This document shows positions 35,541-36,610 of a stretch of DNA of 64,000 nucleotides, one piece after another. The notes below the pieces were generated by a model. The model saw nothing but the letters and a program-made list of their open reading frames with translations. It did not search any database and had not been told where the DNA came from. A program made the translations under genes and the position numbers. The first letter of the stretch is position 1; each line of letters opens with the position of its first letter. Where the stretch lies: assembly GCF_024345375.1 (NCBI RefSeq), contig NZ_JAGQAZ010000001.1, forward strand, positions 806,001-870,000, written 5' to 3'. This DNA comes from Cyanobium sp. WAJ14-Wanaka (lineage in GTDB: Bacteria > Cyanobacteriota > Cyanobacteriia > PCC-6307 > Cyanobiaceae).

Positions 35541-35993
35541 CTAGCGGTGGGGCAGCAGGTGATGCACCGCGTGGATCACCACGCCCCAGATCAGGAGGTC
35601 GGGGTCTTCTCCCTGCAGGGCAATCGGCGCGGTGTGGCCATCGGCGGCCTCCAGCCGCCAGCGGGAGGTGCCACCCTCCAGCCGACGCAACAAAAATTCC
35701 CCCTGGTGCACCGCCACCACGGTGGATCCAGCCACGGGCACCACGCTGCGGTCAATCACCAGCAGGTCGCCATGGTGAATCCCCTCCGCCCGCATCGCCT
35801 CCCCATCCACCCGCATGAAAAAGGTGGAGCTGGGGTGCGGCATCAGCGCCACATTCAGATCGATCGAGCCGTCCACATAGTCGGCCGCCGGGCTGGGAAA
35901 TCCCGCCGACACCGTCTCCGTGGCCAGGGGCAAGAGCAGCTCCTCCAGCTCCTCCAGCGGCGGCCCCAGGAGCACCAGGTCAGCAGAGATCAC
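35541..35993 (-). CDS. UmuD-like protein with both catalytic residues replaced
   Basis: A 150-residue S24/LexA-UmuD-fold protein from a GTG at 35993. The alignment to UmuD is clear: AGFPSPAADYVDGSIDLN at the cleavage region, RVDGEAMRAEGIHHGDLLVI in the core and FLLRRLEGG for the Lys strand, then LIWGVVIHAVHHLL at the end. The catalytic Ser of the GDSM/GESM motif is Ala (A66, in GEAM) and the catalytic Lys, 37 residues later, is Arg (R103). It cannot self-cleave by the usual mechanism. No umuC is adjacent. Confidence 0.78.
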   Translation of the reverse strand: MISADLVLLGPPLEELEELLLPLATETVSAGFPSPAADYVDGSIDLNVALMPHPSSTFFMRVDGEAMRAEGIHHGDLLVIDRSVVPVAGSTVVAVHQGEFLLRRLEGGTSRWRLEAADGHTAPIALQGEDPDLLIWGVVIHAVHHLLPHR

Positions 35994-36034
35994 GCCATGC
36001 ACGCCCACACATCGGCCAGCATAGTTCGGGCGTA

Positions 36035-36610
36035 CTAGTCGCCGCAGCCCTGCCGAAGCACCTGGTCGCGCAGGTCCTGCAGGCCCGGGGATTGGGGCGC
36101 TGCCGGGGCGAAGAGCAGGGTCCAGGCCAGGGGCACATCGCCCCGGTCGAGGGCCGTATCCACCGCCTTCAGCCACGCTGCAGGCCGCTGGGCCAGGGAG
36201 CGCATCAAGGCATGGGTGCTGGCCATCCGCTGGGCGGAAGCGCCAATTAATTGCACATGGGCGAAGCTGTCTGCCGCCGCCCGCAGGGGGCGCAGCCGCA
36301 CCAACACCACCTCCCCGGGGGCAAGGGGGGCGATCGGCCAGGCAATCGGACCAGTAATCGGCTGGCTTGACGTGCCGAATTTCTGCCAGGCCAGCCGGCC
36401 ATTGCGCTCCAGCCGCAACTCCAGCAATGGTTCGGTCACCAGCAGCTGGGGCCGGGGCGTGGGCACAACGCCAAGGGCGTCCCCCTGCTGCACCGGCTCG
36501 ACCCGCGGCGCCACCACACATACGGCCACCGGCTCAGCTTCACGACCGGTGGCTTGCCAGGGCTGGGGATAGGGCGACAGTGCCGCCAGCCATAGGGCAA
36601 TTAGCAACAT
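36035..36610 (-). CDS. Secreted or membrane-anchored hypothetical protein
   Basis: A 191-residue protein with a probable signal peptide (MLLIALWLAALSPYPQPWQA). The mature part has Ig-like strand character (GEVVLVRLRPLRAAADSFAHV) and a helical end with QDLRDQVLRQGCGD. It overlaps the end of arsM by 10 bases and precedes the UmuD-like gene, in one minus-strand run with arsS-arsM. No family recognised; a connection to arsenic is only positional. Confidence 0.55.
   Translation of the reverse strand: MLLIALWLAALSPYPQPWQATGREAEPVAVCVVAPRVEPVQQGDALGVVPTPRPQLLVTEPLLELRLERNGRLAWQKFGTSSQPITGPIAWPIAPLAPGEVVLVRLRPLRAAADSFAHVQLIGASAQRMASTHALMRSLAQRPAAWLKAVDTALDRGDVPLAWTLLFAPAAPQSPGLQDLRDQVLRQGCGD

Follow-up and report, generated by a model that had tools for sequence, protein, structure and literature searches.

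UmuD is a DNA-damage protein that normally cuts itself. In a group of picocyanobacteria, it is reasonably likely that UmuD is naturally split between two genes: an orphan UmuD homologue would be the substrate, and the protein encoded beside umuC would be the protease. With UmuD split into a protein that has the cutting site and a protein that has the blade, mutagenic DNA repair in this group probably requires that one of the two proteins cuts the other. The orphan was found in a 64,000-nucleotide stretch of the genome of Cyanobium sp. WAJ14-Wanaka (the window), with these features:

35541..35993, minus strand: orphan UmuD, a UmuD homologue and proposed substrate only (Ala for Ser and Arg for Lys, with the cleavage region preserved), from the open reading frame and homology
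35877..35906, minus strand: cleavage region AGFPSPAADY of the orphan UmuD, with the scissile Ala-Gly placed by homology with E. coli UmuD
35796..35798, minus strand: Ala codon at the position of the catalytic Ser60, from the alignment to E. coli UmuD
35685..35687, minus strand: Arg codon at the position of the catalytic Lys97, from the same alignment
36022..36037, no strand assigned: LexA-type SOS box TAGTACGCCCGAACTA (minus-strand reading), just upstream of the orphan, from a motif match
36035..36610, minus strand: upstream neighbour of the orphan, an open reading frame of 191 amino acids, possibly secreted, and a candidate only as a member of the system

An orphan UmuD that lacks the catalytic pair

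The minus-strand open frame at 35541-35999 encodes 152 amino acids before the stop codon. Because there are several in-frame GTG codons upstream, the start of the orphan is putative: the candidates are all GTG, at 35993 (as chosen in an earlier, sequence-only reading of this DNA), 36002, and 36008. The protein matches Peptidase_S24 from Pfam (70.7 bits), NF007621 from NCBIfam (the autoproteolytic subunit of Pol V; 118.9 bits, with a cut-off of 110), and E. coli UmuD (8gmt_B; E = 4.3e-25 from phmmer).

The catalytic residues of E. coli UmuD are S60 and K97, as described in PMC5342242. When the orphan is aligned to 8gmt_B, the Ala of its GEAM motif lies opposite Ser60, AGFPSPAADY lies opposite CGFPSPAADY, and the first Arg of FLLRRL, 37 residues after the Ala, lies opposite position 97 (which is Ala in this mutant chain). 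The sequence-only reading had described a UmuD-like protein with an intact site and with both catalytic residues replaced, at this same spacing, and the alignment confirms that description. The orphan has the sequence and fold of UmuD and an arm with an Ala/Cys-Gly cleavage site. Since it lacks the Ser/Lys dyad for self-cleavage, we classified it as a UmuD homologue and not as an autoprotease. The predicted structure was mediocre and contributed little: UmuD' structures were the top PDB matches from Foldseek, the mean pLDDT was 68, and residues 1-54 were mostly below 50.

The protein encoded beside umuC has the reciprocal motifs

The orphan does not form an operon with umuC: the two genes share a contig but are separated by about 228 kb. 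The sequence-only reading had also placed the orphan away from umuC. The host genome (2.14 Mb, 99.93% complete) contains just three matches to S24: LexA, the orphan, and a protein that is encoded directly before the genome's sole match to UmuC. This third protein contains GDSM and FTLKRL, so the catalytic pair is present, and it lacks AGFPSP. There is little space for an arm, because an SOS-type box (TAGTTCAAATGAACTA) starts 149 nucleotides upstream of the Ser motif. Given these reciprocal motifs, the orphan is a site without a blade, and its paralogue is a blade without a site. The sequence-only reading had suggested looking for a second, active UmuD with UmuC in this genome, and the UmuC-linked protein appears to be one, judging from its catalytic-pair residues.

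Orphans and short UmuDs in related genomes

All 16 of the genomes that we searched from the genus, and 264 of the 300 from the family, had a match to the window protein. Profile searches were run in 51, 78, 75, and 80 of those genomes, and sequences were then fetched. Overall, 163 of the 300 family genomes were covered at the level of residues, 36 had no match, and 101 were covered by where the match starts in the profile.

We obtained 133 distinct UmuD-type proteins: 50 orphans, 48 short UmuDs (including two fragments), 25 classical UmuDs, and 10 members of a further dead paralogue. The site region, the Ala, and the Arg are present in all 50 orphans, which come from 49 genomes, so this combination did not arise by chance; the sequence-only reading had proposed checking the Ala and Arg in related strains. 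Setting aside the two fragments (L097 and L124), the site is absent and Ser and Lys are kept in 46 of 46 short UmuDs. All 25 classical UmuDs have the site, Ser, and Lys. "Short" and "classical" were assigned by the presence of the site, so what is tested is the catalytic residues and the genome content.

Among the 74 genomes that could be classified by sequence (again without the two fragments), 46 have the orphan and the short UmuD, 25 have a classical UmuD alone, and 3 have the orphan alone. None of the 74 has an orphan together with a classical UmuD, nor is there any other mix. As for the fragments, L097 is cut by the end of its contig, shows no visible site, and keeps Ser and Lys; L124 is 80 amino acids long, shows no visible site, is missing the Ser region, and keeps Lys. 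Their genomes (G217 and G083) contain a classical UmuD and lack the orphan. In the profile searches of 78, 75, and 80 genomes, the UmuD-level matches start at or before the site, with the exception of the further paralogue in one genome (G222). Of 100 additional sequences (with some genomes represented twice), 96 have the site, Ser, and Lys, three are of the Synechococcus lacustris type (described below), and one is the orphan of genome G037 again.

All 46 short UmuDs are encoded directly before umuC, versus 0 of the 50 orphans. In genus g47, the orphan is about 2 kb or less from the short umuD-umuC pair, on the same strand, in all six genomes, and it is likewise close in a record named as Cyanobium (L151). 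The window protein is 50-70% identical to the other 22 rows of one alignment (A2); in another (A1), which contains ten short UmuDs, identity to the first sequence is just 44-50%. One genome of the window's genus (G007) contains two different copies of the orphan (L010 and L021).

The further paralogue is UmuD-like and dead at both catalytic positions (GNGM, GNGL, GNRL, or GHGL, with Arg for Lys). It has no cleavage site, and it has an SOS-type box. Nine of the 74 classified genomes carry it, including one classical genome, and genome G006 has two copies. Among the examples are:

L022:1453-1866
L023:1420-1848
L027:236-661
L127:1452-1880

To see how far the orphan extends, we also used broader collections. 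At least five orphans with Ala and Arg were among the best 80 contig loci listed, in records titled Cyanobium, Synechococcus, or Synechococcaceae. In 291 genomes from across the phylum (for which a completeness of at least 90% was sought), the best match to the orphan profile from outside the family scored 152 bits, as compared to 231-269 bits for four orphans. Within the family, the scores overlap: one classical UmuD scored 208 bits and the orphan of G037 scored 202 bits. We also considered a mobile-element origin for the orphan and rejected it: among the matches listed from 50,697 phage records and 72,556 plasmid records, all were below 60% identity.

SOS-type boxes

The box just upstream of the orphan (TAGTACGCCCGAACTA) runs into the stop codon of the preceding gene. 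From two boxes of the window genome, we wrote the consensus TAGTWC-N4-GWACTA, which resembles the cyanobacterial LexA box RGTACNNNDGTWCB as given in PMC3091678. Boxes that match at 10 or more of the 12 positions were found upstream of 40 of 50 orphans, 46 of 46 short UmuDs, 23 of 25 classical UmuDs, and 10 of 10 members of the further paralogue; for the other 10 of the 50 orphans, no such box lies in the upstream stretch that was scanned. Dinucleotide shuffles reached this threshold in 0.07-0.4% of cases overall (0.13% for orphans and 0.07% for short UmuDs).

The exact 14-nucleotide core (AGTWCN4GWACT) occurs at seven places in the window genome, including recA, umuD-umuC, and the orphan, and it was not found before lexA. 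A reversed control pattern occurs at two places. With a putative LexA site upstream, the orphan would belong to the LexA/SOS regulon. The other places with the core (L143, L145, L147, and L148, with the box at 1501 in each) are at photolyase/cryptochrome-like, DprA-like, and NmrA-like genes, as named by eye, and at one unassigned spot.

Selection on the orphan and conservation of its cleavage site

The orphans are under purifying selection, judging from a median dN/dS of 0.22 across 365 within-genus pairs. The medians were 0.38 for the short UmuDs (357 pairs) and 0.13 for the classical UmuDs (15 pairs). The sequence-only reading had argued that the double loss was kept by selection, which agrees with this ratio and with the uniformity of the 50 orphans. 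It had also noted that relatives with Ser and Lys would make the orphan a single decayed copy; the relatives that have Ser and Lys turned out to be the UmuC-linked gene, not the orphan. More generally, we considered whether the orphan is a dying copy that was left by a duplication and has no role, as the loss of both catalytic residues might suggest. This is very improbable: the same replacements and the site region are found in 50 of 50 orphans, the dN/dS ratio contradicts decay, the gene has an SOS-type box, and it was not found beside a classical UmuD in the 74 classified genomes.

At the cleavage site itself, P1 is Ala in 48 of the 50 orphans and P1' is Gly in all 50. Along the arm, entropy is low at P1, P3, P5, P7, and P8, whereas it is high at P2, P4, and P6; upstream of P8, it rises. 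Such alternating conservation is what a strand that lies in a protease groove would be expected to produce. Among the 25 classical UmuDs, conservation extends to P2 and P9 but is missing at P5. Since the orphans vary at P2 and conserve P5, and the classical UmuDs do the opposite, the sites of the two kinds of protein are not constrained in exactly the same way. Also, since GFPSP..DY is present in mature UmuD' as well, conservation of the site could serve binding instead of cutting.

The orphan might be an inhibitor that is never cut: the short protein would be made in an active, UmuD'-like form, the arm of the orphan would dock in its active site as a pseudosubstrate, the heterodimer would be inactive, and mutagenesis would be delayed. 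An orphan that lacks the self-cutting residues, keeps its arm, and is under selection would fit this explanation. However, an inhibitor of this kind should leave the short UmuD's Ser and Lys free to change, and both residues persist in 46 of 46 short UmuDs, although the ten in alignment A1 share just 44-50% identity with its first sequence. Also, the scissile Ala is kept in all 47 of the orphans that have a partner. We therefore consider an uncut inhibitor to be unlikely. The sequence-only reading had proposed a non-cleaving form, such as a dominant binding partner of UmuC or a regulator. It was right that the orphan lacks the residues for self-cleavage, and a binding partner or inhibitor is possible; but the substrate-like site, together with a partner that kept the pair and lost the site in 46 of 46 genomes, points to a form that is cut by another protein.

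Another role that we considered is that of a turnover adaptor. In E. coli, full-length UmuD hands UmuD' to ClpXP or Lon, and the protease signals are in the N-terminal part of the arm. The orphan might similarly pair with the short UmuD and deliver it to ClpXP or Lon, which would end the mutagenic phase. It is plausible that the orphan forms a heterodimer with a UmuD'-like partner, and both genes have SOS-type boxes. But the N-terminal arm of the orphan is variable, with strong conservation only from about P8, and the adaptor would leave the kept Ser and Lys of the short UmuD unexplained, which makes this role quite doubtful.

Genomes that lack one of the two proposed halves

In all 47 of the orphans that share a genome with a short UmuD, P1 is Ala and P3 is Val or Ile. 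The orphan-only genomes are G073 (89% complete), G123 (77%), and G037 (62%). The orphans from G073 and G123 are the only two of the 50 with Thr at P1 (from Ala) and Pro at P3 (from Val). In both genomes, umuC (L316 and L317) lies behind an SOS-type box (10/12 by eye) with no umuD in between. These two orphans are near-identical sisters, so the change in the site was probably a single event. In the third genome, G037, the orphan has a normal site, and neither UmuC nor a short UmuD was found in this 62% complete assembly. In genome G041 (L314), too, an SOS-type box (by eye) is followed by umuC without an intervening umuD, and the only match found there was at the level of LexA.

Conversely, the three genomes of the Synechococcus lacustris type have a UmuC-linked UmuD that begins almost at the site (MVVGGFPSP or MVVAGFPSP, with an arm of four residues). 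In these proteins, the catalytic Ser is replaced by Ala and the Lys is kept. No orphan was found in these three genomes. This gene looks as if it encodes UmuD' made without cleavage. Its locations are (L311 appears to be the same contig as L213):

L311:1543-1923
L312:1495-1875
L313:1556-1936
L213:5973-6354

Similarly, a metagenome-assembled genome of a distant cyanobacterium ("Cyanobacteria bacterium SZAS LIN-3"; L181:5973-6348) encodes a UmuC-linked UmuD whose arm is shortened and whose catalytic Ser and Lys are replaced by Gly and Arg. These cases suggest that if the arm is lost in the absence of a partner, then catalysis can go, whereas with the orphan present, catalysis is kept. The contrast is imperfect: Ser and Lys are both present in five related loci from g25, where the arm has six residues, and in genome G059 of g45, where it is longer.

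Evolutionary history of the split

A tree of rpoB and rpoC1 from 40 genomes implies four changes of the split state, with classical genomes nested within genera that are otherwise split. The orphan and the short UmuD change jointly in all three of the well-supported independent pairs (sign test, P = 0.25). The link between the two genes rests on few independent events, and three pairs are too few for significance.

The tree of UmuC from 69 genomes also requires four changes. A single clade of short UmuDs is disfavored (p-AU = 0.023), and the corresponding value for the window's genus alone is 0.047. On this tree, UmuC from the window genome is sister to the UmuCs of three genomes from its genus that have a classical UmuD (support of 98/91). 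In the tree of the UmuD core (100 columns), a strong branch (99) sets the orphans and the further paralogue apart from the rest. This tree allows a single origin of the short UmuDs (support of 88), which conflicts with the UmuC tree. There may have been repeated truncation after one old duplication, or the classical gene may have been regained.

How a split UmuD might work

We propose that UmuD is divided between two SOS-type genes. The orphan would be the substrate half, with the N-terminal arm and the Ala-Gly site and no catalytic pair. The UmuD beside umuC would be the protease half, with Ser and Lys and no arm or site, and so it would be made shorter than UmuD'. Upon DNA damage, LexA would release both genes, and their products would form a heterodimer. 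Once on the RecA filament, the short UmuD would use its active site to cut the arm of the orphan. The cut orphan would then be UmuD'-like and could assemble with the short UmuD and UmuC into Pol V.

Beyond the assignment of substrate and protease, we lean cautiously towards a broader scenario: UmuD would be a natural two-gene system that has exchanged self-cleavage for obligate cleavage in trans, Pol V would be activated by one heterodimer and a single cut, the halves would be inherited together throughout a picocyanobacterial clade, and the site would decay wherever the protease half has been lost. If this is correct, then cleavage in trans can carry the function of UmuD in cells. One cutter and one target would also give a clean system for studying UmuD heterodimers, the partner of UmuC, and the timing of mutagenic repair. 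Furthermore, proteins from these genomes that match models for an "autoproteolytic subunit" need not cut themselves.

Comparison with known systems

To our knowledge, the self-cleaving switches (UmuD, LexA, and phage repressors) are single proteins. Among the literature matches listed, with subscription journals mostly outside the scope of the search, we found no description of a natural split UmuD, which appears to be new.

The presence of two umuD copies in a relative is already in print: a gene survey counted two in Cyanobium gracile PCC 6307 (PMC5101192). The portion of that survey that gives the count does not mention the residues, the arms, or a division of labor.

The short UmuDs also resemble HumD from phage P1, a UmuD-like protein that is made already shortened, according to PMC7092418. 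Unlike HumD, the short UmuDs adjoin umuC and co-occur with a dead paralogue that has an arm. Neither protein from the window genome reached the cut-off of 120 bits for the HumD family (NF051876): the orphan scored 79.9 bits and the short UmuD scored 35.2 bits.

The system described here resembles E. coli UmuD/UmuD' (the S24 accessory subunit of Pol V) in its fold, cleavage region, and SOS-type control. In E. coli UmuD, the site and the catalytic pair are in one protein; here, they are in two genes. The closest precedent is from E. coli proteins in vitro. As reported in PMC5342242, UmuD S60A, which is dead and has its arm, was cut in trans by UmuD 18, which has a truncated arm and is catalytically intact, as heterodimers in an assay with RecA and single-stranded DNA. 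These engineered proteins divide the labor in the same way as the orphan and the short UmuD, and we propose cleavage in trans because of this precedent and this shared division. The pair of S60A and UmuD 18 is a laboratory construct, whereas here the arrangement is natural and is found in 46 genomes, the Lys of the substrate is also replaced, and the truncation of the protease is deeper.
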